Part shown: piece after piece, positions 7,323-28,003 of the stretch
How the letters are laid out: each line of letters begins with the position of its first letter
How positions within the stretch are numbered: position 1 is the stretch's first letter
Origin: Haloplanus salinarum
GTDB lineage: Archaea; Halobacteriota; Halobacteria; Halobacteriales; Haloferacaceae
DNA: 64,000 nt
Direction: 5' to 3'
NCBI RefSeq assembly: GCF_024498175.1
Contig: NZ_CP101823.1
Span: 2,170,001-2,234,000 of the forward strand
The notes under the pieces: generated by a model
What the model was told of the DNA's origin: nothing
The model's database searches: none
The model's input: only the letters and a program-made list of their open reading frames with translations
Program-made: the position numbers and the translations under genes

Positions 7323-7335
7323 CTGTTTCGATTTC

Positions 7336-7629: not shown

Positions 7630-7631
7630 GG

Positions 7632-14945: not shown

Positions 14946-14947
14946 GG

Positions 14948-15271
14948 TTACCGAGCCGGGCGTTCTCCGTCCTCGAAGCCACCGTAGCGGTCGACGTAGA
15001 CGTACAATCCGATACCGAGGACAACCAGTACGAGGACGATCGCGCCGAATTCGAGCATCATTCCGCCCTTCCGAATGGGGCCGGCCACCACGATGCCGCG
15101 GCCGAAGTCGACGAGCGCGCCGCCACTCTCTTGGACACCACGCTGAAGTGCCTGTGCGGAGCGTTTGGCCCACGGCAGTGCGCCGCCGGTTGCGGTGAAG
15201 CCCCAGTAACCAGCGGCGAGAAAGGCAGCGAAGAGGCCGGCAAGGCCACCGTACTGCTTCCAGCGCTGCAT
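14948..15271 (-). CDS. cbiN: CbiN-like small membrane component
   Basis: The protein has 107 residues with one membrane helix at each end (about 8-26 and 72-94) and an extracytoplasmic loop between, the topology of CbiN/NikN. Such subunits are needed for metal insertion into CbiM/NikM. The sequence lacks the common PDGLE signature, so the call rests on topology and on its position directly between cbiM (TGATG overlap) and cbiQ. Confidence 0.7.
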   Translation of the reverse strand: MQRWKQYGGLAGLFAAFLAAGYWGFTATGGALPWAKRSAQALQRGVQESGGALVDFGRGIVVAGPIRKGGMMLEFGAIVLVLVVLGIGLYVYVDRYGGFEDGERPAR

Positions 15272-15951
15272 CAGGTGGTCACCCCAGTCGGCTCCTCCTG
15301 GGTGTCACGGTCGGCAAGGCCGACGAGGTCGGGGCGGACGGAGGCGAGGAACTGAACGATGAAGCCCGTCAGGATACCCTCGATGACGGCGACGCCGAGG
15401 TTGAGTCCGACGAGACCGGCGACGGCAATCGTCAGATCACCGCGCGGCAGCGCGCTCCCGTTCACGCCGCTGATGACGATGATCGCCCCCATCAGGAACG
15501 CGCCTGCGGAAAGGCCGAGCGTCGCGGCACTGGCGCTGGCGGGGAAGACGTCCCAGTCCATTCCCATCAGGGTCTTGAACGCGTAGTAGGCGACGATAGC
15601 TTCGCTCGCGTTGACGAGCGTATTCGCGCCGATCAGACCGACCGCACCGTGCCCGAGCGCCGCCGAGAAGATGTTGACGACCAGCGCGATCAACGCACCG
15701 AGCAGCGGCCCGGCGAGAATCCCAACGAGGCCGGTGAGGTTCATGTGGATGCCACCCCAGACGGGGATATTCAGCTGGAAGATTGCGAAACTCGCTGCCG
15801 CACCGATGCCGGCGAGTGCGATCTGGTGGGTCTTGATGCCACCTTTCCGGACTCGGTAAACTACAGCACTGATCAGTCCGACGCCAAGCAGCGTCCAGAG
15901 TACCAGTGCCCATAGCGGGAACGAGCCTTCTCCGAGGTGAATGTGTGCCAT
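15271..15951 (-). CDS. cbiM: Nickel/cobalt substrate-binding membrane subunit
   Basis: The protein has 226 residues with about six helices. The start at 15951 gives MAHIHLGEG. If Met1 is removed, the mature N-terminus is Ala-His-Ile-His, with a histidine at position 2, as needed for the amino-terminal metal site of CbiM/NikM proteins. GGIHMNLTGL and GANTLVNA match the conserved helices with a third His. An ORF extension to 16017 reads through the promoter and is rejected. A TATA-like box about 30 bp upstream indicates a leaderless transcript. The metal (Ni or Co) is not decided by the sequence; neighbouring NikR genes favour nickel. Confidence 0.87.
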   Translation of the reverse strand: MAHIHLGEGSFPLWALVLWTLLGVGLISAVVYRVRKGGIKTHQIALAGIGAAASFAIFQLNIPVWGGIHMNLTGLVGILAGPLLGALIALVVNIFSAALGHGAVGLIGANTLVNASEAIVAYYAFKTLMGMDWDVFPASASAATLGLSAGAFLMGAIIVISGVNGSALPRGDLTIAVAGLVGLNLGVAVIEGILTGFIVQFLASVRPDLVGLADRDTQEEPTGVTT

Positions 15952-15978
15952 CTCTGGTTTGCCAATTCTTGTTGCAAT

Positions 15979-15996
15979 TATAATAAGGTTGCTGTA
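15979..15996 (-). promoter_or_regulatory. cbiM promoter with shared TACAGCAA motif
   Basis: In gene orientation the sequence is TACAGCAACCTTATTATA, with the TATA-like part about 28-35 bp before the cbiM ATG. The same motif, TACAGCAAGGTTATTA, lies upstream of the adjacent nikR-like gene (16575-16590), so TACAGCAA next to the TATA box may be a metalloregulator site. Confidence 0.5.
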
Positions 15997-16089
15997 CTGG
16001 ATTAAGCAAGCTAACAATCATAGCGTAGAATGAGACAGTATATTGATAGAGAACGGAGTCGACTTTTGTCGGCGCGAATGATTTCGAAC

Positions 16090-16521
16090 CTACTGCTCGC
16101 TGATCTGTGCGTTCATGGCATCGACGGGTAGGACCGTGTATTCGACTGAAACTGACTCGTCTGCTCCTCTAACGGTTCCGATGAAACGCAGGACATCGTC
16201 GTGCGCGGCTTCGATGACGAACGTCTCGACACAACCGGCGTTCCCTTCGAGGCAGTTGTGGGAATTCGACCGGATCGACGCTTCGAATTCGTGGCGGATA
16301 TCCATCATCCGGCGTTCGATTTCCGGTTCGTCGTAGCCGAAGACAGCAGTAACTGTCGCCAATACCCGCCGACCCTCGTAGTCTGTCTCTTGGTACTCTT
16401 TGAGTAGTGACTGGCACGCTTCGCGGATGACCTCACTTCGTCCGGTGTAACCGTGTTCTTCCGCAAACGTATCGAGATCGTCTCGGAGTCGCTCCGTCAT
16501 CGAGGAGCTCACGATGGGCAT
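16090..16521 (-). CDS. nikR: NikR-family regulator with altered metal site
   Basis: The protein has 143 residues: an N-terminal ribbon-helix-helix (1-45, [12 protein letters not shown]) and a C-terminal ACT-like domain. The usual NikR nickel ligands (E. coli H76, H87, H89, C95) are changed. Aligned with the second NikR here, H76 is Phe (RHEFE), H87 is kept, H89 is Cys (SHNC), and the spacing to the last Cys is one residue longer. It may bind another metal or none. The gene lies between the ABC operon and cbiMNQO, co-directional with both, and shares a promoter motif with cbiM. Confidence 0.78.
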   Translation of the reverse strand: MPIVSSSMTERLRDDLDTFAEEHGYTGRSEVIREACQSLLKEYQETDYEGRRVLATVTAVFGYDEPEIERRMMDIRHEFEASIRSNSHNCLEGNAGCVETFVIEAAHDDVLRFIGTVRGADESVSVEYTVLPVDAMNAQISEQ

Positions 16522-16574
16522 ATATTAAAAATTGTCTCAAAGATAATAGTAATAGCAGTCTAGTAAACCGCTAT

Positions 16575-16590
16575 TAATAACCTTGCTGTA
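16575..16590 (-). promoter_or_regulatory. Promoter motif of nikR-like gene
   Basis: TACAGCAAGGTTATTA in gene orientation, 54-69 bp before the start, matches the cbiM motif at 14 of 16 positions. The TTATTA part would serve as TATA box, giving a leader of roughly 25-30 nt. Confidence 0.45.
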
Positions 16591-16598
16591 AGAGCGTA

Positions 16599-17387
16599 TC
16601 ACTGGCTAGTGTCGACAGGACTTCCGAGCGTATTCCTAATTCGCGCGACGTGGTTCACGAAGTCACGAGAGGTCCGTTCACGTGGGCGTTCTAGGTCGAT
16701 AGAGAACGTCGACTGCACGGTTCCCGGGTCGGCATCCATGACGACCACGCGATCAGCGAGGGTCACTGCCTCGTCGATGTCGTGGGTGACGAACACGACG
16801 GTCTGTCCGGTCTGCGTCCAGATATCGAGCAATTCGGCGTGCAAGCGGTCGCGCGTCCGAGCGTCGACACTACCGAACGGTTCGTCCATCAAGAGGATCT
16901 CCGGATCGGGGGCGAGCGCGCGGGCGATACCGACGCGCTGTTTCATGCCGCCGGACAGCTCTTTTGGGTACGCGTCCTCGAAGCCGTCGAGCCCCACCAA
17001 GTCGATCAACTCCCGGACTCGTCCCTCGCAGTCGGGACAGTCACAGGCGGGCCGGTCGAGGCCAAACCGGATATTCCCGCGGACGGTTCGCCACGGGAAC
17101 AGCGCGTACTCCTGAAAGACCATTCCCCTGTCCAGCCCAGGATCGGTAACCGGGTCTCCACCGACCAGTATCGACCCACCATCCGGATCGTCAAGCCCGG
17201 CGATTGCTCGCAACAGCGTCGTCTTCCCACACCCCGAGGGACCGACGACACAGCAGAACTCCCCCTCCGCAACCGAAAACGAGACGTCTGCGAGCGCCTG
17301 CGTCGACTCGTATGACCGGCTGACGTTCTGGATGGTGATCTTCTCACGTGCGTCTCGACCGGTAGACGAGTCCGAACTCAGCGCCAT
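16599..17387 (-). CDS. ABC transporter ATPase, SsuB/TauB type
   Basis: The protein has 262 residues. Walker A is VGPSGCGKTTLL, the Q-loop VFQEYALFPW, the signature LSGGMKQRV, Walker B ILLMDEPFGSVD and the H-loop VTHD; these match the nitrate/sulfonate/taurine (NitT/TauT) ATPases. An unusual cysteine cluster, CDCPDCEGR, sits between the Q-loop and the signature, where relatives have a charged helix. It could bind metal or an Fe-S cluster (inference). The start at 17387 overlaps the permease end by 10 bp. Confidence 0.85.
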   Translation of the reverse strand: MALSSDSSTGRDAREKITIQNVSRSYESTQALADVSFSVAEGEFCCVVGPSGCGKTTLLRAIAGLDDPDGGSILVGGDPVTDPGLDRGMVFQEYALFPWRTVRGNIRFGLDRPACDCPDCEGRVRELIDLVGLDGFEDAYPKELSGGMKQRVGIARALAPDPEILLMDEPFGSVDARTRDRLHAELLDIWTQTGQTVVFVTHDIDEAVTLADRVVVMDADPGTVQSTFSIDLERPRERTSRDFVNHVARIRNTLGSPVDTSQ

Positions 17388-18220
17388 GCGAGGACCCTCC
17401 GTTCGAGTAGTCGGAACCCGACGTCCATACAGAGGAACGCCAGGCTGATCAGGAACATGTAGGCGACGCTGGTTGCCATCGCGAGGTTGTTCGAGGCGTT
17501 GATGATCTCGTAGCCGACGCCTGGTGCGCCGAACAGTTCGGCGCCGACGACGATCATCCAGCAGCGACCAATGCTCGTCCGAAATCCGGTCAACACCTGG
17601 GGAGCGGCACTTGGGAGTGCAACGAGTTTCAGCATCGAGAGGTCGCGCTCCACGCCGAGCGTCGACGCCGCATCGGTCAGTTCGGTCGAAACGCCCTCCA
17701 CGCCGCCGTAGGCGCCGTAGAAGTTGATCCAGAACGCGCCGACGAAGACGATGAACGCCGCGCCAGTGTGGTGGATGCCGAACCAGACGATGGCGAAGAC
17801 GATCCACGCCAGCGGTGGGATCGGTCGCAGTACCCGGACGAGTGGTCGCAGCCAGTCGTCGAGCGCACCGTTCCAGCCCATCGCAAGGCCGAATCCAGCT
17901 CCACTGACGGCACCGAACAGGAGGCCGGGAACGTAATGTAACAGCGTCTGTGTGAGGTGTGCAATCCCGGTCGGAAGTGTTATTTCGGCACCGAATAGCG
18001 GAACGAGGAGCGCTGTCGACGTAGTAAACAGGTCGAGAAATGCTCGTGCCGACTCGACCGGCCCCGGTAACAGATACGACGGTTGTGTGGTCGCTGCACC
18101 GATCCACCACACCGTGAGGAATATACAGAGACCGCCGACGCCGCGAGCATACCTTCGCGTATCGATCCCGAGTCGTGGACGCTCAACGTCGCCGATGCCG
18201 GTAGTCGTGCGTGCCGTCAT
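17378..18220 (-). CDS. ABC transporter permease, SsuC/TauC type
   Basis: The protein has 280 residues and six hydrophobic segments. The EAA-like coupling loop (DAASTLGVERDLSMLKLVALPSAAP, read in parts) is typical of BPD_transp_1 permeases that pair with NMT1-type binding proteins. The ATG overlaps the binding-protein stop (ATGA) and the 3' end overlaps the ATPase gene, so binding protein, permease and ATPase form one translationally coupled unit. The transported compound is unknown; the setting between two NikR-like genes suggests a metal chelate or metallophore (inference). Confidence 0.85.
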   Translation of the reverse strand: MTARTTTGIGDVERPRLGIDTRRYARGVGGLCIFLTVWWIGAATTQPSYLLPGPVESARAFLDLFTTSTALLVPLFGAEITLPTGIAHLTQTLLHYVPGLLFGAVSGAGFGLAMGWNGALDDWLRPLVRVLRPIPPLAWIVFAIVWFGIHHTGAAFIVFVGAFWINFYGAYGGVEGVSTELTDAASTLGVERDLSMLKLVALPSAAPQVLTGFRTSIGRCWMIVVGAELFGAPGVGYEIINASNNLAMATSVAYMFLISLAFLCMDVGFRLLERRVLAWR

Positions 18221-19245
18221 TCTCGAACGGACTCGTATGGCTCGAATGCGAACAATTCGTCTGATTCAACCGCTTCGTCGATGTTACCCACCTCCGCGAC
18301 GTATTCCGACATCGTCTCGGTCTGGTCAACGATCTGTCGCGGGTCAGAAATGAAATCTGCCGCGCGAGACTGCATCGCGGCCTCAGCGAGTTCGACGCTC
18401 ACCCCCGACCCGATGACCGACGCTGCGTGAGCGGCAGCCGTGTTCGGATTAGCGTTCACAAACTGAGTCGCTCGAATGTGCGCGTCAACGAGCGATTGAG
18501 CAACCTCTGTCGCCTCGAGTACCCGTTGGTTCACGAACAACCCGGTCATCGGATGCCCCGGAAATATGCTTCCAGACCATTCGAGTTCGGTGAATCTCTC
18601 GTCGCGTCCGATTATTGTCGCAAACGGTTCCATAATCATCGTCGCGTCGATATCGCCTGCTTGGATAGTCTGTACCGAGCGAGCCGGATTGATTTTCGAC
18701 TTCGTTACAACTGTGTCGAAGTCCCCCACACCGAGATCCCGTTCGATCCAGTACCGAAGAACCACATCGGGGACGCTCCCGTCCGGGGGGGCCCCAAATC
18801 GCATCTTACGCCCGGATTCTGCCTCGAATTGCTCGAATGTATCCGAACCCACTTGCCCGTATAGATCTGCGATATCGGTAGTCGCCATCACTTTGAACGC
18901 GTTTCGCCCGTTTGCCGTGAGAACGGTTGCATTAGCTCCTCTATCGACGAGAACCATCGCAGGAGTGACTCCTCCAATAGCGACATCGATATCGCCGCTG
19001 GCGAACGCCTTCACCAAGCTCGGACCGTTGCTGAACCGTTCAACGGTGACATCGACAGATAGCTCGTCGTAGTAGCCCTCCTCCTGCATCACGAAGTGTT
19101 GCATGTTCGGGTAAATCGGGACGTACGCGACCGTGACGGAATCGAGTGATGCACCTCCCTGACCGAGACAGCCGGCGATTCCTGTCGCAGCAATCGCGGT
19201 TGCGCCTGCCTTCTGGAGTAGTCTTCGGCGCGAGATTTGAACCAT
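18217..19245 (-). CDS. ABC transporter substrate-binding Tat lipoprotein, NMT1 type
   Basis: The protein has 342 residues. The N-terminus has the twin-arginine motif SRRRLLQ, a hydrophobic stretch and the lipobox GIAGC (Cys about 26), so it is exported folded by Tat and lipid-anchored outside the cell. The mature part has the NMT1/SsuA fold: VAYVPIYPNMQHFV, GPSLVKAFASGDIDVAIGG (quoted in part), and MIMEPFA. The start at 19245 is chosen because the Tat motif follows directly; the frame extends to 19296. The ligand cannot be told. No His-rich stretch or obvious nickel-site pattern is seen. Confidence 0.85.
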   Translation of the reverse strand: MVQISRRRLLQKAGATAIAATGIAGCLGQGGASLDSVTVAYVPIYPNMQHFVMQEEGYYDELSVDVTVERFSNGPSLVKAFASGDIDVAIGGVTPAMVLVDRGANATVLTANGRNAFKVMATTDIADLYGQVGSDTFEQFEAESGRKMRFGAPPDGSVPDVVLRYWIERDLGVGDFDTVVTKSKINPARSVQTIQAGDIDATMIMEPFATIIGRDERFTELEWSGSIFPGHPMTGLFVNQRVLEATEVAQSLVDAHIRATQFVNANPNTAAAHAASVIGSGVSVELAEAAMQSRAADFISDPRQIVDQTETMSEYVAEVGNIDEAVESDELFAFEPYESVRE

Positions 19246-19396
19246 CAGTATTGCTAACTCTAGAAGTATTCCTAATAATAGATGTGATTCCAACAAAATA
19301 GTTAATAGTTATAGAGGATAGAGTTCGCAGATGTTGCTAGAGTCGGCGTGAATTCAGCGAGAATCCCGCGAGCGACCGCAGGGAGCGAGTGGGATG

Positions 19397-19453
19397 TCGG
19401 CGAGCCTACTGACTGGAGCGAGTGGAACGAGCGGAATGAAGTAGGCTCGCCGG
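19397..19453 (-). terminator. GC-rich 12-bp hairpin
   Basis: CGGCGAGCCTAC (19398-19409) pairs with GTAGGCTCGCCG (19441-19452) around a 31-base loop that itself contains repeated GAGCGAG words. It lies 17 bp downstream of the second nikR stop. It could limit read-through toward the ABC operon, or be a dispersed palindromic repeat. Confidence 0.4.
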
Positions 19454-19469
19454 AAGGGGCAAAACAGTA

Positions 19470-19898
19470 TCAGTTCATATCGGCCAGCGGGCCGAAGTCG
19501 TCGACGGGTAGCACTGAGTAGTCGATTGTGAGCGTGTCCTTCGTCGCTCGAATCTTCCCGACGAACGTCGAAATCTCTTCGAGCGACCCTTCGAGTACGA
19601 ACAGTTCCATGCAATGATGGCCGCCGACGTGGCTATGGAAGTTCGAAGCGACGATGTCCTCGTGCTCGTGGCGGAGGTGCATCATCTTCTCCTCGACGCT
19701 CGTCGTTTCGTAATCGAAGACCACCGTGACGACACCCATCAAGTCTCGATCTTCGAGTTTCGTATCCTCGAACTCACCGAGGAGGTTCCGACTCGCCTCA
19801 CGAAGTACTTCACTGCGACCAGTATAGCCGTGATCGTCCGCGAACTGGTCGATTCGGTTAAGCAACTCCTCCGGCATCGAGACGCTGACCACACTCAT
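19470..19898 (-). CDS. nikR: Nickel-responsive regulator NikR, canonical site
   Basis: The protein has 142 residues: ribbon-helix-helix (1-45, [12 protein letters not shown]) plus ACT-like domain with the complete nickel ligand set, LRHEH then [10 protein letters not shown], that is H-x-H-x5-C with the upstream His equivalent to E. coli H76. The start is at 19898 (MSVVSVSM); the ORF extends to 19952 without sense. A TATA-like cttaatattt sits about 30 bp upstream. It probably represses the co-directional transporter genes downstream when nickel is sufficient. Confidence 0.85.
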
Positions 19899-20191
19899 AT
19901 AACAATGTAGGCAGCACGAAATATTAAGGATTATCATTTTCAGCTGCGGCATTACAGTGATTAGCGACTTGCTTTCTCACGATAGTGGCGGCACTCTAAG
20001 AGACGGTGGGTTGCTTCGAAATTGCGGAGTGTTGCTGAAACGAATTTCAGGGTTAGTCAGAAACTTGTGATGTATTTTGTTGGAATGAAAAAACAGAATA
20101 CACGCATCAATACCACCCTCCGAGTTGTGGGGATTTGAGACTTCGTTCAGAAGAAGGTGTAACGCGCAGAGACGTGAGTGCTCGAAAGGAG

Positions 20192-20542
20192 CTACCGTAA
20201 TTCTTTGACGAGAGCAGTGGTCGCGTTATCGACGATATCATCCGCCAGACGACCCTGCCAGAAATCGATGTCCTCGTGGCCGATCGATTGCACACCCCAT
20301 GGAACGATCCGGCTCTCATCTGGCGTACCGCCACGAAGCCAACTCTCCTCGGGAATGTCGATGAGTCCATCCATCCATGATTTCGACGTCAGCGTGAGCG
20401 CGATATACTGCTCGCCGTGGAACGGACGCCCTTCGTGGTTCGAAAGAATGAGCCAAGGCCGAGCGTCCTCGTCACGTTTGAACGGGTCATCGCCGTAGAC
20501 GACGTCGCCACGGTCGAAAATTGGTGGTTCTCCGTTGGTCAC
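20192..20542 (-). CDS. PemK/MazF-like toxin
   Basis: The protein has 116 residues. The N-terminal FDRGDVVYGDDP plus RPWLILSNHEGRPFHGEQYIAL (quoted in two parts of the same strand pair) fit the MazF/PemK/Kid SH3-like barrel; members are endoribonucleases that cut mRNA. The ATG overlaps the stop of the upstream wHTH gene (ATGA), giving an antitoxin-first operon, the usual order for type II toxin-antitoxin modules. It is next to insertion-sequence copy 2. Confidence 0.75.
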   Translation of the reverse strand: MTNGEPPIFDRGDVVYGDDPFKRDEDARPWLILSNHEGRPFHGEQYIALTLTSKSWMDGLIDIPEESWLRGGTPDESRIVPWGVQSIGHEDIDFWQGRLADDIVDNATTALVKELR

Positions 20543-20910
20543 TGTTCATCCTCAACGCTCGGGTGTGACTCGCTGGGCGCGTGTTCGCGCCAAGATTCCT
20601 TGTCTTCTGTGCCGAGTTGCTCGTTGAACAGAGCAGTCGCCCGTTCGTAGCCGCTGTACCCCTCGAGTCGCTCGTCGTTGTCGGTGATCGCCCAGTACGT
20701 TGCCTTGTGTTCGACGAGATCACGATCCTTCAATCGTGAGAGAGCAGTGCTGACCGCGCCCTCGTCGATGCCAATCTGAGAGGCGATTTCGCGGGCCTTG
20801 AACGCCCGATCCTCGTTGGCGGCGAGAAATCCGAGGACTTGGTCAGGGACCGAAAGATCCGCGAGCTCGTCCTCGCTCGCGTTCTTGAATGTGTCTCGGT
20901 CGATGGACAT
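20539..20910 (-). CDS. Winged-HTH antitoxin
   Basis: The protein has 123 residues. A MarR-like wHTH (about 25-85: VPDQVLGFLAAN, SQIGIDEGAVSTALSRL) is followed by a charged, probably disordered C-terminal tail of about 35 residues that could wrap the toxin. It is co-transcribed with, and overlaps, the MazF-like gene. A winged-helix rather than AbrB or RHH antitoxin is typical of haloarchaeal MazF pairs. Autoregulation is likely. The start is at 20910 (MSIDRDT). Confidence 0.72.
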   Translation of the reverse strand: MSIDRDTFKNASEDELADLSVPDQVLGFLAANEDRAFKAREIASQIGIDEGAVSTALSRLKDRDLVEHKATYWAITDNDERLEGYSGYERATALFNEQLGTEDKESWREHAPSESHPSVEDEQ

Positions 20911-20990
20911 GGTTGAAAGAAGGTACGTCATCCGCTGTGAAGAGTGTTAGGTGTGAAAGCTACGAAAATTGCTGAAGGCGAATCACTGTC

Positions 20991-23060
20991 CATCACGAAG
21001 GAGTTTGAGAACCGTATGCATTGAGACGATCAGTCTCATCTTCTGGGAGCACTGGTTCGCTATCGCGACATGCGATTTATCGAGGCGTTTCGGGTGGAAG
21101 TTGAGACTACAGTGGGTTTAGCAGGGCTGTGATGCGTGAATTTGACCGATTCGGTCAGCGGGTACTGCCCCAGATGGCCCTCCAAGCGGCTATTCTTGTC
21201 ACCCATCCAACTATATGTGCAAATTTTCGAGACTTCCAGCAGCGTAGCCACTCAGACGGCACGCTAACCCGAACAGAGTTCCTCACTACCCGATTCCAGT
21301 TTCCTTCTTCAGCAGTGTCAGCGTATTATCTGCCGTCACGATTGGCGCATGTTCGTACTCCCCGGTCAATTCAACCTGGACGAGCAGATCAACTACCCGC
21401 CAGATCGAGTACAGCAAACACGCGAACGCGAAGTAGAAGAAGCGGAGTCCGAAGCCCTTCGATGTCGTCGCCGCCATGAACCGCTTGATCGACTTGTACC
21501 CACTCTCGATTTCCCACCTGTAGCCATACTCGGTGAGGTGGCCACTCCCTCGATTCGTCATGAACACCGAGTACTGTCGATGGTCGTCGTGCTCTGAGTC
21601 CTCTTTCCGCCGGTAGATCAGCGTCGTCTCGTGCCATTCGTTCTTGCCGAGGTGGAGCTTCCGGTCGGTCTCGTAGCGGTCTTGGTGCCGTTGGAACAAC
21701 CGCTTGGCCTGGGCTTTCTCGCTGGTCTGCATCCGCTTGGGAACGACGTAGGAGTGCCCGCGCTGGCTGATCATCTCCAGGACATGCTGACTATCGAACT
21801 CCCGGTCCATCAGCACGTTATCGACGTGAACGAGGTCCTCAGCCGAATCGAGCAAGTCCTCGACGATTTCTAGTCGTGTCTCTCCCTTTCGGACGGGGCG
21901 CGCGTCCAGCACAATCGGGACGGCATTCCCGACCAACTGCACCGTCGCCCACTGGTAGGCGTACTCGTCGGTCTTCTCTTTCGTCCCGATGATTTCGTCT
22001 TCGTGGCCCGTTCTGTCGCCCGTAAAGGGGTCAGCTTCGGTAATGTCGATCGCGACGATTCCGGCTCGAAAGAACTGCTCTGTCTCGGCAACTTCGTTTA
22101 GGAGACGAGTGATGGCCTGCCGGTACATCTCTCGCACTTGGTCAATCGAGAGGTCCCGGATCTGTTCCCGATGGGCGTGCCCCAGCGGTGTCCGATCCCG
22201 AGTCGATTCGTAGACGAAACTGCGAGCCCCTTCGTTCGCAGCCAGCCGCTCGCGAAGTCCGAGATATGTCTGCAGGCCCAGTAGGCGTTCTCGTGTATCT
22301 CACACCCATCGCCCCGGTCCAGCGAGAACGCCGGAAAGACGACACGGCTGACGTGATCGCTGATCTTCGCTGCTTCTTCCAAAACAGTCTGGTCGTCCAG
22401 ATCGGTCGCACTAGGCTCGTCGTTATGGTACTGGAGCTTCCGTTCCGGGTCACGAGGAATCGCAACACCGACATTCTGTGCGTTGATGAGAATCGTCCGA
22501 GCCGTTCTCTCGATTGTCTCACGGAGATCGGCGCTGAAGCGCTTGTTCCAACTGCGCCAGAGTGTCGACTGGTCGGGAACGGAACCGAACCCGAGCGAGC
22601 GACGGGTTTCAGAGTGCTGACGAAGATACTGGACGAGCGCGGTTTCGTGGCCCCAGCCGTACATTTCTTTCAGTAGGAACGCTCTGAAGAGCTGTGGCAT
22701 CTCGTATCGAGTCGGGCCGGAGTACTGATCATGGGGACTGAACTCCACGTAGGACAGTGGATACTGACAGACGAACCCCTCGACCGAGTTGTGAGCGCTG
22801 TGTTCGAACCAGATTCCCGAGCCGGTCCGGATATCCTCTGTGAGCGCTGTCAGTGAACTTTGGTCGTACAGTGGCGTCGAGTCGTAGGCCGGCCAATCGA
22901 CGTGTGGGCGTTGAGCGATTCGTCGAAAGACATCACGGCGGGAAGTATCACTCGGGACCACTAGAACTCCATACCCCTGACTCGTGTACGGACTCATCTC
23001 CATCGAAAGATGTGCGGCACTGTCCGAAACGGGCCAATTCCAACTTTGCCGTCATTCCTC
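20991..23060 (-). mobile_element. Decayed DDE insertion sequence, copy 2
   Basis: Similarity to copy 1 starts near 20991 (ATCACGAAG). The left end has GTATGCATTGAGAC followed by the hairpin TGAGAC-N5-GTCTCA, and a second shared block GTTGAGACTACAG. The right end is past the transposase start at 23003, about 23060 at most; terminal repeats were not identified. Outside the 431-bp identical tract the two copies differ at many positions. Confidence 0.6.
21286..23003 (-). pseudogene. DDE transposase, copy 2, frameshifted
   Basis: The 5' frame (23003 to about 22280) is complete from MEMSPYTSQG through PDQSTLWRSW to ENAYW. Loss of one G near 22277-22280 (TGGGCC for an expected TGGGGCC) throws the frame into a false C-terminus ending at 22098. 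The catalytic frame resumes as GLQTYLGLRERLAANEGARS and runs to 21286 with DREFD and WEIESGYK. Restoring one base gives a protein of about 570 residues. The lesion is about 37 bp from that of copy 1, so the two were inactivated independently. Confidence 0.78.
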
Positions 23061-23092: not shown

Positions 23093-23803
23093 TCAACCAC
23101 CGATTGCAGTGATAATGTGGAGGACGAGGACGATAGCAGTGACAACAGTCAGCAAGACGTGTACTTGTCGCCATCGTGAAAAGAGAGTCTCTTTGGTGAC
23201 GGTCAGCACACGGCCAACGACTGACGGTGTCTCATCTCCTCGTCCAAGCCGGACGACGTGCCGATGTAGATATCGACCATACAGGCCACTCGCCACCTCT
23301 ACACCGAGTAAGACAGCAACTGCGAGACCGAGGCCTTCCCACTCTTCGACAGCAATGAAGTGTGGCAGCGTTAGTGCCGTCCCGATAAGAACGACCCACT
23401 GGTGTGTTTGTAATTGATACCGACGGTACTGCACCGGCAGCAATCGCTTTCGCTTTGCAAGACTGTACCCAAGGACACCGAGGACGAGAAAGACAACGCC
23501 AGCTTCAACCACACCAATGTACGGGGCCTCACTCACTTCACCACCAAGGCCCCACCAATCTCCAATCAGACTCGCGCCTGTCTCATCTTCGTCCGAATCC
23601 TCTGCATCTTCACCTTCCTCTTCCTCACCATCCAATTCATCCACGTCCGCAACAGGAGGGAGTGACTGTTCTGTTGCGTCGAGATTTTTCACGACTATAT
23701 GATCACCATCTACTGGTGATGCCCCCGCTTGAACAGTGCCGACTCCGCTAACGACCAGAATGAGCACAACGGCGAGGCCGACTTGCGATAATCGATTATA
23801 CAT
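23093..23803 (-). CDS. Four-helix b-type cytochrome-like membrane protein with acidic exported segment
   Basis: The protein has 236 residues. A signal segment (1-27) leads to an exported acidic linker (about 30-90) containing DETGAS at 73-78, then five hydrophobic helices. Two helices carry H-x13-H pairs (H134/H148 and H215/H229), the spacing of bis-histidine heme sites in ferric-reductase/cytochrome b-like proteins, and HRH lies at 180-182. TGAS resembles the [ST]GA[ST] site flavinylated by ApbE, which is encoded 1.5 kb away. The start is at 23803 (MYNRLSQ); a longer frame to 23899 covers the promoter. It carries the shared motif at 23835-23856. Electron transfer is inferred. Confidence 0.7.
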   Translation of the reverse strand: MYNRLSQVGLAVVLILVVSGVGTVQAGASPVDGDHIVVKNLDATEQSLPPVADVDELDGEEEEGEDAEDSDEDETGASLIGDWWGLGGEVSEAPYIGVVEAGVVFLVLGVLGYSLAKRKRLLPVQYRRYQLQTHQWVVLIGTALTLPHFIAVEEWEGLGLAVAVLLGVEVASGLYGRYLHRHVVRLGRGDETPSVVGRVLTVTKETLFSRWRQVHVLLTVVTAIVLVLHIITAIGG

Positions 23804-23834
23804 ATCCAGCTGTGGGTACGGTATCAAAAAGTGT

Positions 23835-23856
23835 GTTCGCGTCCAGTCATCGAATC
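23835..23856 (-). promoter_or_regulatory. Redox-locus motif, site 1
   Basis: In gene orientation it reads GATTCGAT-N3-TGGACGCGAAC, 32-53 bp before the start at 23803, and is followed by a T-rich TATA-like box (CACTTTTTGATA). The same motif precedes the neighbouring genes at 24694 and 24999, and in weaker form 27813. Confidence 0.7.
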
Positions 23857-23971
23857 GTATGCGTCCACACAGTATTCTGGCATAATACGAAGGGCTCAAC
23901 GCAGGTGCCCGGGACTACTGTGCCTGCAGGCGGTTACTATACAATAGCGGATAGGTTTGATCCGGTATCAG

Positions 23972-24694
23972 CTAATCTTCGTCATCATCGTCGGAGTGGT
24001 CGTCGGAGTCATCATCGTCGGAGTGGTCGTCGGAGTCATCATCGTCGGAGTGGTCGTCGGAGTCATCATCGTCGGAGTGGTCGTCGGAGTCATCATCGTC
24101 GGAGTGGTCGTCGGAGTCATCATCGTCGGAGTGGTCGTCGGAGTCATCATCGTCGGAGTGGTCGTCGGAGTCAGAGTCTGAATCAGGATTGCCGGCGTCA
24201 TCCTCATCAGAGCTTTCGTCACCTTCGTTCTCGTTGGAGCTGTCGTCAGAAACCGTATCCTCTGAATCCGAATTGTCGTCTGAGTCGGTTTCGTTGAGGT
24301 CGTCTGAGTCGGTTTCGTTGAGGTCGTCTGAGTCGGTTTCGTTGAGGTCGTCTGAGTCGGTTTCGTTGAGGTCGTCTGAGTCGGTTTCGTTGAGGTCGTC
24401 TGAGTCGGTTTCGTTGAGGTCGTCGATATTGATGGTCTCACTTGGGGTGTCGGCAGTCAAGCTATCGGATGCACTATCATCGGAAAAGAGCGCTCCGAGC
24501 GAATCAAATAGCGATAGTCCGCTAAGTGACTCTATCTCTATCTCACTCGTCCACGTAGTAGTACTGTTCGTATCTTGATCAGCATCTGCTGTTTGGTTTG
24601 CGGGCGCGGCGGTGACGGAACCAGTTGCTGCTGCGCCTGCGCTCAATATGAGCAGGGTAGCGAGGGCGATACTGGCTATCTTATTGCGTGGCAT
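23972..24694 (-). CDS. Secreted Asp/His/Ser-rich repeat protein
   Basis: The protein has 240 residues. A signal peptide (IASIALATLLILSAGAAATG) is followed by a short Thr-rich region, six tandem copies of NETDSDDL and then seven tandem copies of DDHSDDDDS, ending EDED. The protein is almost entirely acidic and disordered. Seven regularly spaced histidines in a polyaspartate tail suggest divalent-metal or heme capture outside the cell (inference). NET sequons would allow N-glycosylation. The start is at 24694 (MPRNKIAS). It carries motif site 2 in its promoter. Copy number of both repeats is likely variable. Confidence 0.7.
   Translation of the reverse strand: MPRNKIASIALATLLILSAGAAATGSVTAAPANQTADADQDTNSTTTWTSEIEIESLSGLSLFDSLGALFSDDSASDSLTADTPSETINIDDLNETDSDDLNETDSDDLNETDSDDLNETDSDDLNETDSDDLNETDSDDNSDSEDTVSDDSSNENEGDESSDEDDAGNPDSDSDSDDHSDDDDSDDHSDDDDSDDHSDDDDSDDHSDDDDSDDHSDDDDSDDHSDDDDSDDHSDDDDED
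23977..24176 (-). repeat. Seven 27-bp tandem repeats (DDHSDDDDS)
   Basis: Seven near-perfect 27-bp units (plus-strand core gtcatcatcgtcggagtgg) encode one DDHSDDDDS each. Units are directly adjacent, with no unique spacers, so this is a coding minisatellite and not a CRISPR array. Confidence 0.9.
24275..24423 (-). repeat. Six 24-bp tandem repeats (NETDSDDL)
   Basis: Six 24-bp units with the plus-strand core gtctgagtcggtttcgttga encode NETDSDDL in the same secreted protein. The units are almost identical at DNA level, a sign of recent expansion by slippage or recombination. Confidence 0.9.
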
Positions 24695-24726
24695 CACACC
24701 CACCTGGGTACCGTTTACAAAATAGC

Positions 24727-24769
24727 GTTCGCGTCCATCTATCGAATCGTCGTACAACCATCGAATCGT
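24727..24769 (-). promoter_or_regulatory. Redox-locus motif, site 2 (double)
   Basis: The gene-sense core GATTCGAT-N3-TGGACGCGAAC is at 24748-24727, with a second GATTCGAT 19 bp upstream separated by GTTGTACGACG-like sequence. A TATA-like tattttgtaa lies between the core and the ATG at 24694. Confidence 0.7.
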
Positions 24770-24860
24770 TTGCACGCACGGATTAGACAGAGCACTGATT
24801 GCACCAGATGCCTGGTAACCGAATGACATAGATTCTCAGAACTCACTTCACGTCCTGAAC

Positions 24861-24902
24861 CGATTCGATAGCTGTACGAACATTCGATGGTTGGACGCGA
24901 AC
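24861..24902 (+). promoter_or_regulatory. Redox-locus motif, site 3 (double)
   Basis: The core CATTCGAT-N3-TGGACGCGAAC lies at 24881-24902, with an upstream CGATTCGAT at 24861-24869, again offset by 19 bp and joined by GCTGTACGAA. It is oriented toward the gene at 24999 and its downstream operon, with a leader of roughly 60-70 nt. Confidence 0.7.
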
Positions 24903-24998
24903 GCCTTACTACGGCTGTCTCAACCTTCTATCTGTAATGGCAGCACGTAACGACCGACACGTCGAAGATAGTGGTTCTGAACCGAGGGGTAGCTAATT

Positions 24999-25319
24999 AT
25001 GCGCGTTCCCGTCCCGAAAAACAAACTCGTCGCCTTCACGCTCGTCGGTGCGCTCCTCACAGCTGGTGTCGCCGGGGCCCTCGCGCTGCCCGGTGGCGGC
25101 CTCGCGCAAGTTGGCGAGCAAACTGACTCATCCGGTTCAACGGCATCGGATGTAGCACAACAGGCCGCTTCGGATGCGCCGACGCCGAATCAGGAGTTCA
25201 CCCCAGCAGTCCAGACACAGTCCGGATACGAGGACGAAGAACACGAGGAGTATGAAGAAGACGACGAGGATGAATACGAAGAGGAACACGAGGACGAAGA
25301 ACACGAAGAGGACGAGTGA
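24999..25319 (+). CDS. Secreted Glu/Asp/His-rich protein
   Basis: The protein has 106 residues. A signal-like N-terminus (KNKLVAFTLVGALLTAGVAGALAL) is followed by a Ser/Gln-rich linker (40-75) and a C-terminal 30 residues made almost only of E, D, Y and H in EDEEHEEYEED-type repeats. Four histidines in a polyacidic tail suggest metal binding. It is first in an operon: its TGA overlaps the GTG start of apbE. It shares the acidic/His theme with the divergent repeat protein, perhaps a functional analogue on the opposite promoter. Confidence 0.65.
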   Translation: MRVPVPKNKLVAFTLVGALLTAGVAGALALPGGGLAQVGEQTDSSGSTASDVAQQAASDAPTPNQEFTPAVQTQSGYEDEEHEEYEEDDEDEYEEEHEDEEHEEDE

Positions 25320-26194
25320 CCGAGATGATGGGATCGCTCGCATCGGTCTACGAACGGTTTGGGGACACCTACCGCGAGTTCGAGTGTTGTGACACGACGT
25401 TTCAGATTCAGGCGACGGGCGTTCGGGCCGAGGGTGGGGCAACTGCGGCCCGAAAAACGGCTGAATCACTCGAAGCCCAGCTGAACGCCTTCGATGCGGC
25501 GAGTGCCGTCAGCCAGCTCAACCGTGAAGAAGAAGTCAGGAACGAACACGTTGCCCAAATCGTTCGCCGTGGAATCGAATACAACGACCGGACTGACGGG
25601 GTGTTCGATATTCATCAGGGCCGCGTCGAACACACCCTCAAAACATTCCTGCGCGGTGACAGCGAAACACCACCAACGGAGTTTGATACCGGAACTGTCC
25701 GAACCAGCGGGTCGCACGTCACGACCGACGTCGAACTCGACCTGAATGGCCTCGCCAAGGGATACATCGTGGATCGAACCGCCGAGACGCTCACGGGACT
25801 CAGCCGATGCGGGTTCGTCAGTGGTGGGGGGGATATGTCTCCACCGACGGGCCCGGTCGCCATCGAGAGCCCGTACGGTGACGACACACCGCTGAAGGTC
25901 CTCGACACGGACTGGTATGTCGCAACATCCGGCGGATACCGACGGTCGCGAAACGGCACTGACCACGTCTACGATCCGACCACCGAATCGCTCGGCTCTC
26001 GCCATGAATCGGTCACCGTCGTGGCGCACCGAGACTGTATGGAAGCCGACGCCCTGGCGACGACCCTCGCGGCACTCCCACTTGCCAAGGCACGCGAATT
26101 AGCATCGGAATGGGAGGGTCTAGAGGCGCTCATCATCCACGATGGCGTCTTCCATACGACAGATGGCTTTGAGACACATGTCTTGGACACATAA
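25316..26194 (+). CDS. apbE: FAD:protein FMN transferase
   Basis: The protein has 292 residues with ApbE-fold signatures: VELDLNGLAKGYIVDR (the conserved glycine loop and Lys), VSGGGDM for the flavin-binding loop, VATSGGYRRS, and MEADALATTLAAL for the Mg-binding C-terminal motif. ApbE transfers FMN from FAD to Ser/Thr in partner proteins exposed outside the membrane. No export signal is evident, so location is unclear. The start is GTG at 25316 (GTGA overlap) or ATG at 25325. Candidate substrates with TGAS motifs are encoded on both sides. Confidence 0.88.
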   Translation: MTEMMGSLASVYERFGDTYREFECCDTTFQIQATGVRAEGGATAARKTAESLEAQLNAFDAASAVSQLNREEEVRNEHVAQIVRRGIEYNDRTDGVFDIHQGRVEHTLKTFLRGDSETPPTEFDTGTVRTSGSHVTTDVELDLNGLAKGYIVDRTAETLTGLSRCGFVSGGGDMSPPTGPVAIESPYGDDTPLKVLDTDWYVATSGGYRRSRNGTDHVYDPTTESLGSRHESVTVVAHRDCMEADALATTLAALPLAKARELASEWEGLEALIIHDGVFHTTDGFETHVLDT

Positions 26195-26465
26195 GCAACG
26201 AATCACTGTCGTGGCGATGGTCGTCTTAGTGGTGGCTGTCCCTGCTCTTTGGCAGATCGGAGACGTGCGTGCCGCCCAAGCGACCGAACAAAAACAAAGC
26301 GACCTCGTCGATCAGACCGTTTCGACGCGACAGGCCCCTGCCGATTACGATGGTGATGGTATCAACGACTCGGCGGATAAGTGTCCGACACGACCGGAAA
26401 CGAAAAACGGGTTCCAGGACGCGGACGGCTGTCCCGATGTCGTCGAAACGACGGGGGCATCGTGA
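26178..26465 (+). CDS. Exported thrombospondin-3-repeat protein ending in TGAS
   Basis: The protein has 95 residues. A basic start and a hydrophobic helix (about 9-24) act as signal or anchor, and a short exported domain holds DYDGDGINDSADKCP and FQDADGCPD, calcium-binding thrombospondin type-3 repeats with two cysteines that could pair. The last four residues are TGAS, like the flavinylation site of ApbE substrates. The gene overlaps apbE by 17 bp and the next membrane gene by one base (TGATG), so the three are co-translated. Function is unknown; a small flavin or calcium-dependent redox protein is possible. Confidence 0.7.
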   Translation: MSWTHKQRITVVAMVVLVVAVPALWQIGDVRAAQATEQKQSDLVDQTVSTRQAPADYDGDGINDSADKCPTRPETKNGFQDADGCPDVVETTGAS

Positions 26466-27007
26466 TGTCACAGCTCGTCTGGCTCCTCGACCGAGGCGCC
26501 GCACTCGTGACGTATCCGGCGTTGTATCTGGCAGTTCTCACGGGGATCCTCTACAACACGGAGTCGTTTGGAATGCTCCACGAGGCCGCTCAACGAATCC
26601 ATATCGAACTATCCGTGTTCGCGATGATCGTCACGTTGCTACACGCGGGACTCGGTGTGCTTGATGCGTGGTTCGTCGTCACCGGACAGGTTCCACCGCC
26701 GGCATACTCGATGCTGTACTTTCTCGGCGGCATCACCGTAGGTGCGGGGGCACTGCTTATGCTCGTCGTTGCGGTGCTTGGCTTTACTGACGCAAAACGC
26801 TTCCAACGCCCCTGGGGCCCACGCGTCGTCCACTCATTCGCATATGCTGGGTTCGCGTTCGGGACAATCCATGCTGCAGCGATCGGGACTGATCTGGCGG
26901 GACTCATCCGTCCGCTGCTGGGACCCTCAGTGGCATTTCTCGTATACGTACTCCTGTTGCGTCTGTTGGTGCTTCGAGGGATACCGTCGAACGCGACCCC
27001 GGGTTAG
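26465..27007 (+). CDS. Cytochrome b-like membrane protein
   Basis: The protein has 180 residues and about five hydrophobic helices. H46/H60 are separated by 13 residues and H123/H136 by 12, the bis-histidine spacing of ferric-reductase-like (YedZ/MsrQ, NOX) heme helices. No flavin- or NAD-binding domain is attached, so electrons must come from quinol or a partner. It is the last gene of the 24999-27007 operon, and its stop overlaps the convergent regulator gene by 4 bp. Confidence 0.72.
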   Translation: MSQLVWLLDRGAALVTYPALYLAVLTGILYNTESFGMLHEAAQRIHIELSVFAMIVTLLHAGLGVLDAWFVVTGQVPPPAYSMLYFLGGITVGAGALLMLVVAVLGFTDAKRFQRPWGPRVVHSFAYAGFAFGTIHAAAIGTDLAGLIRPLLGPSVAFLVYVLLLRLLVLRGIPSNATPG

Positions 27008-27525
27008 TAGCTGTCCCAGAGACCCAGAATTCGGTCGACGACTTTGTCAGTGAACGAGCGTTGGTGAACCGTGTAGAGGTATTTTACCCGATCAGGATTG
27101 CTGACCTCGTAGACGACGCTCCGGCCGTCGCGTTCTTTCGTGACGAGGTCAGCCTCGGCGAGCTTCGAAAGATGCCACGAGATGGTCGATTGCGCCTTGT
27201 CCAAGCGGTCGCCGAGTTCGGTTGTCGAGAGTGGACCGTCCGTGAGAAGATGTGCGAGGATGCGGCGACTGTATTCCCGGCGCAGCGCGTTCATCACTGT
27301 TCGATCGGCTTCGTCGAACTCGGCAGCCGGATAGTACCGCGTGTACTTGCCGTCGTCAGAGACGTCGATCAGGTCTTCATCGGCGAGCCACCTGAGCTGG
27401 TACTGGAGCGTCCCCTGCGCGTACTCGAGTTCGTCGAGGAGCGCGCGAAAGTGAATTCCAGGCGTATCGGCTATCCGCTGGTAGATTTCCCGCCGAGAGG
27501 CCAATTCGAGATCCGGGTCCGACAT
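27004..27525 (-). CDS. Double winged-HTH regulator
   Basis: The protein has 173 residues with two ArsR/MarR-like winged helices: residues about 10-65 (GIHFRALLDELEYAQGTLQYQL, quoted in parts) and about 80-150 (LSTTELGDRLDKAQSTISWHL). This two-wHTH layout is common in haloarchaeal regulators that sit beside small membrane proteins. It is second in an operon with the 94-residue membrane protein. A weaker copy of the locus motif lies upstream of that operon, so this protein is the best candidate for the locus regulator (inference). Confidence 0.75.
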   Translation of the reverse strand: MSDPDLELASRREIYQRIADTPGIHFRALLDELEYAQGTLQYQLRWLADEDLIDVSDDGKYTRYYPAAEFDEADRTVMNALRREYSRRILAHLLTDGPLSTTELGDRLDKAQSTISWHLSKLAEADLVTKERDGRSVVYEVSNPDRVKYLYTVHQRSFTDKVVDRILGLWDSY

Positions 27526-27528
27526 TGC

Positions 27529-27813
27529 TTAGTCCCGCGTCAAAGCGACGAAAAACGCCAGGAGGCCACCGAGGATCAGGATTGCACTCCCGTGTTCGAG
27601 TAATTCCAGCGTCGCGTACGGGAAGTACGGGAGCAGCGGGTACTCGAGAAACACGATGAGTCCGTAGACGGCGAACATCGCGTACCCGAGCGTAACGATC
27701 CACATACGACGATCACGTTCCCGCCGCCATGCGAGGAAGCTGAGTACACTCAGGCCTGTCGCGAGGACGAAGATGCCCAGACTGACATATTGTTCGAGGA
27801 GTTGAGCGAGTGG
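27529..27813 (-). CDS. Three-helix membrane protein
   Basis: The protein has 94 residues with three hydrophobic helices (about 6-25, 35-56, 68-90) and a basic patch WRRERDRRMW between helices 1 and 2. It starts at 27813 (MPLAQLLE), and the regulator gene begins 3 bp after its stop. Pairs of a wHTH protein and a three-helix protein recur in haloarchaea. It probably senses membrane state and passes this to the regulator; function is otherwise unknown. Confidence 0.6.
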   Translation of the reverse strand, partial: PLAQLLEQYVSLGIFVLATGLSVLSFLAWRRERDRRMWIVTLGYAMFAVYGLIVFLEYPLLPYFPYATLELLEHGSAILILGGLLAFFVALTRD

Positions 27814-27896
27814 CATACGTTGTATCTGTACACACAGCCGGAGCGACGTACTCGGCGATCGATACAATTCAATCGAAGGGGGTAGCGGGGAAAACG

Positions 27897-27918
27897 ATTG
27901 GCGTTCAACCGTCGAATC
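27897..27918 (-). promoter_or_regulatory. Redox-locus motif, site 4 (weak)
   Basis: In gene orientation GATTCGAC-GGT-TGAACGCCAA matches the core of site 3 at 17 of 22 positions and points to the gene at 27813, about 85 bp away. The match could be chance, but it has the same orientation and distance class as site 3. Confidence 0.4.
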
Positions 27919-27925
27919 CAATCTT

Positions 27926-27956
27926 ATGCATTGAGACGACCAGTCTCAACTTCTGG
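27926..27956. repeat. Solo insertion-sequence end remnant
   Basis: ATGCATTGAGAC-GACCA-GTCTCA and the following ACTTCTGG match the left end of insertion-sequence copy 2 (21012-21042) with few differences, including the 6-bp hairpin. No transposase is attached. It marks the change from the lower-GC accessory block to the GC-rich block at about 28.0 kb. Confidence 0.65.
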
Positions 27957-28003
27957 TTTCGGGAATCAGTATCTTCAACACGGCACGCCCCGGAGTCGGG
28001 GAC

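Follow-up and report, generated by a model that had tools for sequence, protein, structure and literature searches.

ApbE, the flavin adenine dinucleotide (FAD):protein flavin mononucleotide (FMN) transferase, attaches FMN to the last residue of the sequence [S/T]GA[S/T], the full motif being D-x-x-[S/T]GA[S/T] (PMC12052999; PMC8238504), and the flavinylated electron-transfer systems described in the literature considered here use dedicated acceptor domains, a flavin-binding domain together with the motif, or a motif within an NqrB/RnfD-type membrane subunit (PMC8238504; PMC11334425; PMC12052999). In MsrQ-like flavinylation systems, apbE lies beside a six-helix membrane protein with two predicted heme sites formed by four conserved histidines, and electrons pass to a flavinylated extracytosolic protein (PMC8238504; PMC11334425). 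DUF4405-like and PepSY-like cytochromes, whose most conserved residues are four central histidines on membrane helices, are also encoded beside flavinylated proteins, and ApbE-associated FMN_red proteins hold a flavin-binding domain beside a motif that sits in a disordered C-terminal extension (PMC11334425). The engineered Flavin-tag, a seven-residue C- or N-terminal peptide that starts with Asp, dispenses with a flavin-binding domain; the seven residues are sufficient and work best at a terminus (PMC12052999). Here we analyzed a stretch of 64,000 nucleotides (the window) from the 3.45-Mb chromosome of Haloplanus salinarum (NZ_CP101823.1, positions 2,170,001 to 2,234,000), which carries a gene cassette containing apbE. 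We consider it likely that this cassette encodes a self-contained transmembrane electron-transfer module in which FMN is carried on the C-terminal tail of a small thrombospondin-3 (TSP3) protein and is fed by a two-heme membrane protein.

The core module spans 24864-27916. Four forward-strand genes, overlapping head to tail, encode an exported or anchored acidic protein, ACID (24999..25319), with a conserved N-terminus and a PTPNxxFTP motif followed by a variable Glu/Asp/His/Tyr tail; an ApbE without a signal peptide (25316..26194); the 95-residue TSP3 protein (26178..26465), which comprises an N-terminal anchor, a linker, one TSP3 repeat and the C-terminal sequence VVETTGAS; and MEM (26465..27007), a predicted five-helix membrane protein that is a candidate two-heme b conduit of the MsrQ/ferric-reductase type. 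They face two reverse-strand genes, one for a two-winged-helix regulator (helix-turn-helix protein, HTH; 27004..27525) and one for a 95-residue membrane protein paired with it (sTM; 27529..27816). An initial annotation of the locus had listed six adjacent genes, for ApbE, two membrane proteins, two secreted Asp/Glu/His-rich proteins and a TSP3 protein, with a regulator pair at the end, and all of the genes that it named, including two exported acidic or His-rich proteins and the pair formed by HTH and the small membrane protein, were found at 23093-27816, as were the histidine pairs of the two membrane proteins (H-x13-H twice at 23093-23803; H-x13-H and H-x12-H at 26465-27007). The leftward pair at 23093-24694, which encodes a second four-histidine membrane protein (P0001) and an Asp/His-rich repeat protein, is an optional extension outside the core.

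As in MsrQ-like systems, apbE is set beside a membrane protein with paired histidines, and the four histidines of MEM that could form two heme sites are identical in 52 of 52 copies. Unlike its MsrQ-like counterparts, however, MEM has five predicted helices and falls under the cut-off for PF01794, the putative acceptor is a bare C-terminal tag without an FMN_bind or DUF2271 domain, and the ApbE is leaderless. By analogy, the module is a candidate for a system that works in the MsrQ manner, but we have not filed it as MsrQ-type because the PF01794 cut-off, an acceptor domain and a signal peptide were all tested for and MEM, the locus proteins and ApbE lacked them. MEM has no Pfam match to the DUF4405-like or PepSY-like cytochromes, and P0001 touches DUF4405 in one of five members (E, 0.39). 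In contrast to the Flavin-tag, the candidate tag is natural, has no initial Asp and sits on an anchored TSP3 protein, in which no flavin-binding domain comparable to that of the FMN_red proteins was recognized. The third apbE of the same genome adjoins a gene for a NosR-like protein (locus L005, 7022-10271) and would also serve an extracytosolic FMN site, DALTGASVTT; there, however, the acceptor has an FMN_bind domain and an Asp in its motif and the ApbE has a Tat-type signal (by eye), all of which the cassette lacks, so that L005 offers a canonical reference within the genome. Diheme proteins of the NOX, STEAP and cytochrome b561 families likewise carry histidine pairs 12 to 13 residues apart on two helices, but the locus has no NAD(P)H/FAD domain, and sequence similarity is too weak for membership. 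An NqrB/RnfD-type subunit (PF03116) was found in 0 of 48 genomes, namely the 47 that carry the cassette and G340, in which the contig stops 163 bases past ApbE, and the gene set bears out the earlier expectation of an arrangement that differs from the Nqr, Rnf and FMN_bind systems. What is new is the bare candidate tag at the C-terminus of a protein without a recognized flavin-binding domain, its leaderless ApbE partner and their occurrence in a module that is mobile among archaea and has an operator of its own.

The C-terminal tail of the TSP3 protein

The TSP3 protein ends in VVETTGAS, with Ser95 as its final residue, and the terminal TGAS codons (26451..26462, forward strand) mark the candidate site of FMN attachment. 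Tails were surveyed at 71 loci, of which 52 came from a search of 392 genomes of the order and 19 from a genome contig collection, the latter being the remainder of 45 after those with a MEM start identical to already-included DNA had been dropped. The tail type could be read at 70 loci (62 TTGAS, 4 TTRAS, and 1 each of NTGAS, TTGAT, TTGGS and TTHAS), the exception being L174, a copy broken by frameshifts, and the core motif [S/T]GA[S/T], as TGAS or TGAT, was present in 64 of the 70. Since some loci share tail DNA, there are 56 distinct 30-nucleotide tails; in these, Thr stands at position -3 in 56, Gly at -2 in 53 and Ala at -1 in 55, and the last residue is Ser in 55 and Thr in 1. Relative to the commonest codon, the last four codons differ silently at the third base in 59 cases and by a replacement in 5 (uncorrected for relatedness), and all four show silent changes, which argues that selection acts on the residues of the tail.

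Mean conservation was 0.98 for the last five residues, compared with 0.70 for the anchor, 0.72 for the linker and 0.83 for the TSP3 repeat, and at L071 and L085 the repeat has gone while the tail is retained (VVETTGAS and VVTTTRAS, respectively). Among 1190 open reading frames (ORFs) called in these loci, a background count rather than a census because the gene caller missed the TSP3 gene in many of them, 12 end in [ST][GRH]A[ST], and every one is this tail. Four additional plasmid copies all end in TTGAS in frame, although the N-terminal frame of one of them (L267) is shifted. The TSP3 repeat itself scored 24.8 bits against PF02412, just short of the cut-off of 25, and the orthologue carries the name of a TSP3 protein at NCBI in two of three inspected plasmid records in which the gene is annotated. 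Orthologues of the TSP3 protein and the cassette ApbE are encoded on plasmid pHsi540 of Haloarcula sinaiiensis ATCC 33800 (WP_011225052.1 and WP_004966867.1). The distribution of charge predicts an N-in/C-out topology for 70 of 70 TSP3 proteins. Apparent offsets of 21 to 23 bases between the TSP3 stop and MEM at L071, L083, L084 and L085 arise from a longer MEM N-terminus, and an argument that the tail persists where the stop lies that far before MEM was dropped, as the MEM start codon overlaps the stop in three of the four and lies a few bases on in L083.

ApbE and the search for other flavin acceptors

The window ApbE belongs, by its score of 126.8 bits (E, 1.4e-36; curated cut-off, 25.6), to the FMN transferase family PF02424, and its closest solved chains are FMN transferases. 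Catalytic residues His257 and Asp285 are reported for the Vibrio cholerae enzyme (PMC12052999); in chain 6nxi_A they align with H217 and D245 of the window protein if an inferred numbering shift of 16 is assumed, and the equivalents of both residues are invariant in 52 of 52 cassette ApbEs. None of these 52 proteins has a hydrophobic N-terminal stretch: the maximum 19-residue hydropathy in the first 60 residues is at most 0.86, compared with 1.30 for the ApbE beside NosR and 1.99 to 2.45 for four exported proteins of the locus, signal peptides being judged here by hydropathy only. The start of the window ApbE overlaps the ACID stop, which leaves little room for a hidden signal. Cytosolic ApbEs exist (PMC12052999). 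Two readings would reconcile the leaderless enzyme with the predicted external tail: the flavin is attached in the cytosol and exported along with the tail, or the topology of the TSP3 protein is inverted. A 2021 survey of flavinylation discarded genes without a signal peptide or lipidation site (PMC8238504), and this filter may explain why the leaderless group was passed over.

The initial annotation treated the genes next to apbE as a functional set and would have been refuted had they not occurred together in other genomes; their co-occurrence across haloarchaea proved very strong. A MEM query matched 48 of the 392 genomes; after exclusion of G082 as too weak (E, 3.6e-4), 52 cassette copies were counted in 47 genomes, and an ApbE of the same family lies just upstream of MEM in all 52. 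ApbE is present in 47 of 47 MEM genomes against 3 of 345 others (Fisher P of about 1e-57, uncorrected for relatedness), the three being the contig end in G340 and two deleted remnants of the module. PF02424 occurs in 50 of the 392 genomes, and its 60 genes comprise the 52 cassette members, the contig-end gene, the two remnants and 5 higher-scoring genes (166 to 210 bits) confined to four genomes of the window's own genus; outside the module, there is almost no ApbE in this order. In both remnants (G131 and G177; L262 and L263), the start of ApbE is joined to what appears to be the antisense of the module's far end, seemingly by internal deletion.

The tested acceptor families are scarce. None of the locus proteins matched FMN_bind (PF04205) at E<=1, and none matched DUF2271 or DUF3570. 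Across the 48 genomes, FMN_bind was found in only 4, the same own-genus genomes that have the higher-scoring ApbEs, and the one match in the genome of the window is the NosR-like protein; no match to DUF2271, DUF3570 or NQR2/RnfD (PF03116) was found in any of the 48. Thus, 44 of 48 genomes are without any of the four tested acceptor families, with Flavodoxin_4 and FMN_red types not searched for. Among called proteins, [ST]GA[ST] was absent from MEM (0/50), ACID (0/43) and HTH (0/35) and rare in ApbE (1/46) and sTM (1/26); the PTPNxxFTP motif of ACID had been considered as a flavin site and was dropped because [ST]GA[ST] is absent from all 43 called ACID proteins. The predicted external linker of P0001 contains an internal ApbE-like motif, DEDETGASL, with an acidic residue at position -6 in the window copy; [ST]GA[ST] is found at this site in eight of nine cluster members, is missing in the divergent L083, L129 and L130, and is possibly a second flavin site.

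The membrane proteins MEM and P0001

The initial annotation took the paired histidines of both membrane proteins for heme ligands, and these residues proved invariant, with H46-x13-H60 and H123-x12-H136 identical in all 52 copies of MEM and the four of P0001 in 12 of 12 sequences. An AlphaFold2 model of MEM has five helices (mean predicted local distance difference test score [pLDDT], 80; predicted template modeling score, 0.67). Read from the limits of the helices rather than from coordinates, H46 and H123 would lie close to one end of helices 2 and 4, with H60 and H136 nearer the opposite end, an arrangement that fits the layout of a two-heme conduit. Ferric_reduct (PF01794) was listed for 29 of 38 MEM members at E<=0.5 (best, 9.7e-5). 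In the VIA fold comparison, MEM matched NOX5 (Z, 10.7; root mean square deviation [rmsd], 4.3; 155 aligned residues) and cytochrome b561 (Z, 10.1; rmsd, 3.7; 149 aligned), with STEAP also among the matches at a Z of about 10; these matches are not proof, because designed helical bundles score alike (10.8). Families that do not appear in the structure and profile lists may still apply to MEM and P0001. Beyond the order, 16 genomes of the phylum match the MEM profile at E<=0.001, and 11 of these loci (L250-L260) each contain a MEM-like ORF, mostly with a longer N-terminus, in which paired histidines and a shared IGTD motif can be seen by eye; a profile of the cassette ApbE had no match at E<=0.01 in these 11 stretches. 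These loci show that MEM belongs to a wider archaeal family, which is uncharacterized and cytochrome-like.

P0001 (23093..23803, reverse strand) begins with a signal or anchor, followed by an acidic linker, a WWGxGGE motif and helices that bear H134-x13-H148 and H215-x13-H229. These histidines and H180 are invariant in all 12 sequences, the other 11 being 48 to 96% identical to the window copy. After exclusion of G222 (E, 1.7e-4) from 12 matching genomes, strong matches were found in 11 of the 392 genomes, and all 11 are among the 47 cassette genomes (Fisher P of 2e-11, relatedness ignored). P0001 lies about a megabase from the cassette in G119 and G090, and in G373 it spans the ends of a probably circular contig. 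Matches to the Pfam family Ni_hydr_CYTB (cytochrome b561) were under the cut-off (E, 0.034 to 0.05), and the structural model is poor (pLDDT, 60), its best Z scores, 10.9 to the diheme bundle 4D2 and 10.3 to cytochrome b561, being at background level.

Proposed mechanism and rival explanations

Extracytoplasmic electron transfer by flavin and heme, as proposed in the initial annotation, is the best general reading of the locus, and the respiratory or metal-linked role suggested with it is a possibility; the accompanying statement that the set contains no flavin acceptor is probably wrong, as the TSP3 protein bears a C-terminal ApbE-type motif in 70 of 71 loci. We propose that ApbE takes FMN from FAD and links it to the TSP3 protein through the hydroxyl of its C-terminal Ser (Thr in one copy), so that the TTGAS end of this 95-residue protein would be a natural flavin tag. 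The protein would be held by its N-terminal helix, with the calcium-type TSP3 repeat and the flavin tail outside the cell, while MEM would bind two b hemes, one between H46 and H123 on the inner side and one between H60 and H136 on the outer side, and carry electrons through the membrane to the external FMN, taking them from a donor in the membrane or the cytosol that is probably a quinol. The reduced tail may then reduce an external acceptor near the surface, perhaps metal bound by the acidic, His- and Tyr-rich ACID; P0001, where present, would add another b-type cytochrome to this chain, and the HTH/sTM pair would control the promoters via the shared operator. Flavinylation is probably cytosolic and precedes export of the tail, since ApbE has no signal peptide, and this is the least certain step. 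We are evenly divided over the most specific form of the proposal, in which a leaderless ApbE works in the cytosol and flavinylates a tiny calcium-type anchor protein at its final residue, after which the exported tail acts as a domain-free external flavin wire fed by the two-heme MEM.

If this is true, the minimal natural protein flavinylation unit is a tail of four to seven residues, ApbE has an acceptor without a flavoprotein domain, and an extracytosolic flavin can be provided without export of FAD. Archaea would own an exchangeable version of the flavinylation system, the ApbE genes of this order would gain a concrete substrate and partner, and the question would arise of how a transferase in the cytosol can act on a site that is exported.

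Several observations weigh against this proposal. Six of the 70 tails break the motif (4 TTRAS, 1 TTHAS and 1 TTGGS), and the usual Asp at position -6 is absent from all 56 distinct tails (Val in 55, Ile in 1), so that the match to the motif is only partial; this Asp has been called strictly conserved, although one enzyme was little affected when it was replaced by Ala (PMC12052999). Because the TSP3 stop codon reaches into the start of MEM or almost up to it, part of the tail DNA may also serve translation of MEM. The window MEM scores 15.8 bits against a Ferric_reduct cut-off of 28, a PDB search with a profile built from 38 MEM sequences brought up no cytochrome (sole match, a C5a receptor chimera at E 0.032), Foldseek with the MEM model found nothing at E<=0.001 (best E, 1.0), and the Z of 10.7 to NOX5 falls within the helical-bundle background. 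Finally, a C-out topology is predicted for the TSP3 protein, although the cassette ApbE is without a signal peptide.

The tail might be conserved for reasons of nucleotide sequence, through ribosome binding or translational coupling to the MEM start. The stop does overlap that start or lie a few bases from it, at L071, L083, L084 and L085 as elsewhere, and GGG, which encodes the Gly in 45 of 56 distinct tails, could act in ribosome binding. The 59 silent differences against 5 replacements (relatedness ignored) nevertheless speak for the protein, the codons being varied (GCC, GCA or GCG for Ala; TCG, TCC, TCA or TCT for Ser; ACG, ACA or ACC for Thr) and the sole replacement of the terminal Ser being Thr, the other flavinylatable residue, and we consider this explanation very unlikely. 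ApbE could instead modify another protein, either P0001 at DEDETGASL or a distant target, with the TSP3 tail serving in anchoring or in recognition by a protease or partner. The target of an ApbE need not be encoded nearby, the acceptor search did not extend to Flavodoxin_4 and FMN_red types, and the P0001 site has both its acidic residue in the window copy and its motif in eight of nine cluster members; but P0001 is found in just 11 of the 47 cassette genomes, and its site is missing in L083, L129 and L130, whereas the TSP3 tail is present in 70 of 71 loci, and FMN_bind is absent from 44 of 48 genomes and the other three tested families from all 48. On balance, a different target seems unlikely.

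The orientation of the TSP3 protein bears on another alternative, that the flavin end is cytosolic, matching the leaderless ApbE, and that MEM, like NADPH oxidases, receives its electrons on the cytosolic side. All 52 cassette ApbEs lack the hydrophobic N-terminal stretch that the NosR-side enzyme has in Tat-type form (by eye), but charge asymmetry places the C-terminus outside in 70 of 70 TSP3 proteins, and a TSP3 repeat that holds a Cys pair suits calcium-rich surroundings outside the cell; we give this alternative little credence. A device for handling metals could also be imagined, in which the acidic and His-rich proteins bind metal, MEM and P0001 are metal reductases or transporters, and the ApbE homologue processes FAD, as does Ftp of Treponema, or supplies free FMN; an FAD pyrophosphatase of the Ftp type has been described (PMC4767422). 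The composition of the acidic tails (His and Tyr at about 9% each), the match of HTH to the ArsR/SmtB model and the resemblance of MEM to Ferric_reduct would suit such a function, but HTH, with four His and no Cys, gives no evident sign of metal sensing, and the TTGAS tail next to ApbE would be left unexplained. Metal handling in this sense seems quite unlikely, and it is compatible with electron transfer rather than exclusive of it.

ACID, the regulator pair and the operator

The 40 extracted ACID proteins, of 87 to 209 residues, carry a PTPNxxFTP-type motif in 37 cases and after residue 75 contain on average 74% Asp/Glu, 9% His and 9% Tyr, with no Cys. L071 has, 5' of ApbE, an ORF of 392 residues in which the acidic tail has expanded to long repeats of Tyr, Asp, Glu and Arg, as seen in its last 140 residues. 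Such expansion suggests that the repeats turn over fast. HTH, which unites an HVO_0163 N-terminal family domain with an ArsR-like helix-turn-helix, matched NF033788 at 84.9 bits (cut-off, 55) and PF24266 at 78.2 bits (cut-off, 31); although it passes the ArsR/SmtB model, it lacks Cys, so that a role in metal sensing does not follow.

A 15-bp unit, TTCGAYRRNTGNACG, usually doubled at a 19-bp period, lies 5' of the core operon (24864..24897, forward strand) and of the Asp/His-rich gene (24732..24765, reverse strand, two units). Single units in the window stand on the reverse strand, one 5' of P0001 (TTCGATGACTGGACG, 23840..23854, an exact match to TTCGAYRRNTGNACG) and one 5' of the sTM-HTH genes (TTCGACGGTTGAACG, 27902..27916), where it may mediate autoregulation. 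With two mismatches allowed, the tandem operator was found at 66 sites in 45 of 47 genomes, all within 2.8 kb of a MEM gene; 50 of 52 cassettes were covered, the exceptions being those of G253 and G156, and a reversed control pattern had no match in the 47 genomes. We take the stretch next to the core tandem operator to be BRE/TATA-like. These sites suggest that the module carries its own control, and the shared units suggest that P0001 and the Asp/His-rich protein of the window belong to the same regulated system as the core; HTH would be the protein that binds the operator.

The single unit has 10 exact matches in the genome of the window, 7 of them in its two cassettes. Two of the others (L086 and L095) have no promoter-like context by eye, and the third (L088; 2033519) is followed by an AT-rich stretch. 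There are 59 further sites with one mismatch, of which 2 are in the second cassette (1421213 and 1424290), and context was inspected for 20 of the 59. The total of 69, against 8 for the reversed control, may be explained by TCGA-rich composition, and a wider regulon is possible.

Distribution and mobility

The locus lies in the left part of the window, in DNA of 53 to 63% G+C per 2 kb compared with 66 to 73% across 28-58 kb. A second copy of the core at about 1.42 Mb in the same genome (L004, about 6276-9300) has no adjacent P0001 or Asp/His-rich gene, and one unit of its tandem operator carries a mismatch. Its MEM is only 74% identical to that of the window, yet the window MEM and copies from other families are 96 to 97% identical. 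This pattern, flanks that vary between loci and the presence of at least 80% of the core in eight plasmid records indicate that the cassette is best read as a horizontally moving module. In closer copies that lack the left extension, DNA similarity usually ends near 24730-24860 on the left and 27920-27975 on the right, close to the outer operators. Among gene families seen in most loci, there was no conserved neighbor outside the module except transposases, and with no conserved flanking gene a substrate cannot be read from context. ACID, HTH and sTM were called in at least 43, 35 and 26 of the 52 loci, respectively, these counts being lower bounds because the gene caller at times chose an antisense ORF; the Asp/Ser/His-rich repeat family was called in 3.

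A scan of the genome contig collection yielded 45 loci, all under haloarchaeal names, and a phage search with MEM gave no match. Genes of 288 nucleotides, a length equal to that of TSP3 and of sTM, are each annotated in three plasmid records, in which the ApbE genes of the order appear just as "FAD:protein FMN transferase" among mostly hypothetical proteins. No description of the module was found in the titles and opening abstract text of open-access literature on ApbE or flavinylation in archaea and haloarchaea.

Other features of the window

The optional secreted Asp/Ser/His-rich repeat protein (23972..24694, reverse strand), which has its own tandem operator, is built from SDDHSDDDD and DLNETDSD units. 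It and P0001 lie to the left of the core on the opposite strand, followed by a split transposase. Two related transposase copies (21286-23003 and 11505-13051) are each split across two ORFs, and the transposase DNA beside P0001 was matched jointly with P0001 in six other loci. A possible toxin-antitoxin pair at 20192-20931 consists of a PemK-like protein (E, 0.0034, under the cut-off) and a MarR-type HTH protein. The region at 13261-19952, read by eye, contains what we take to be ABC/ECF-type metal-transport genes (a CbiM-like protein and an ATPase) and a gene for a solute-binding protein, near two CopG/NikR-like regulators, and presumably resembles a nickel/cobalt uptake locus.

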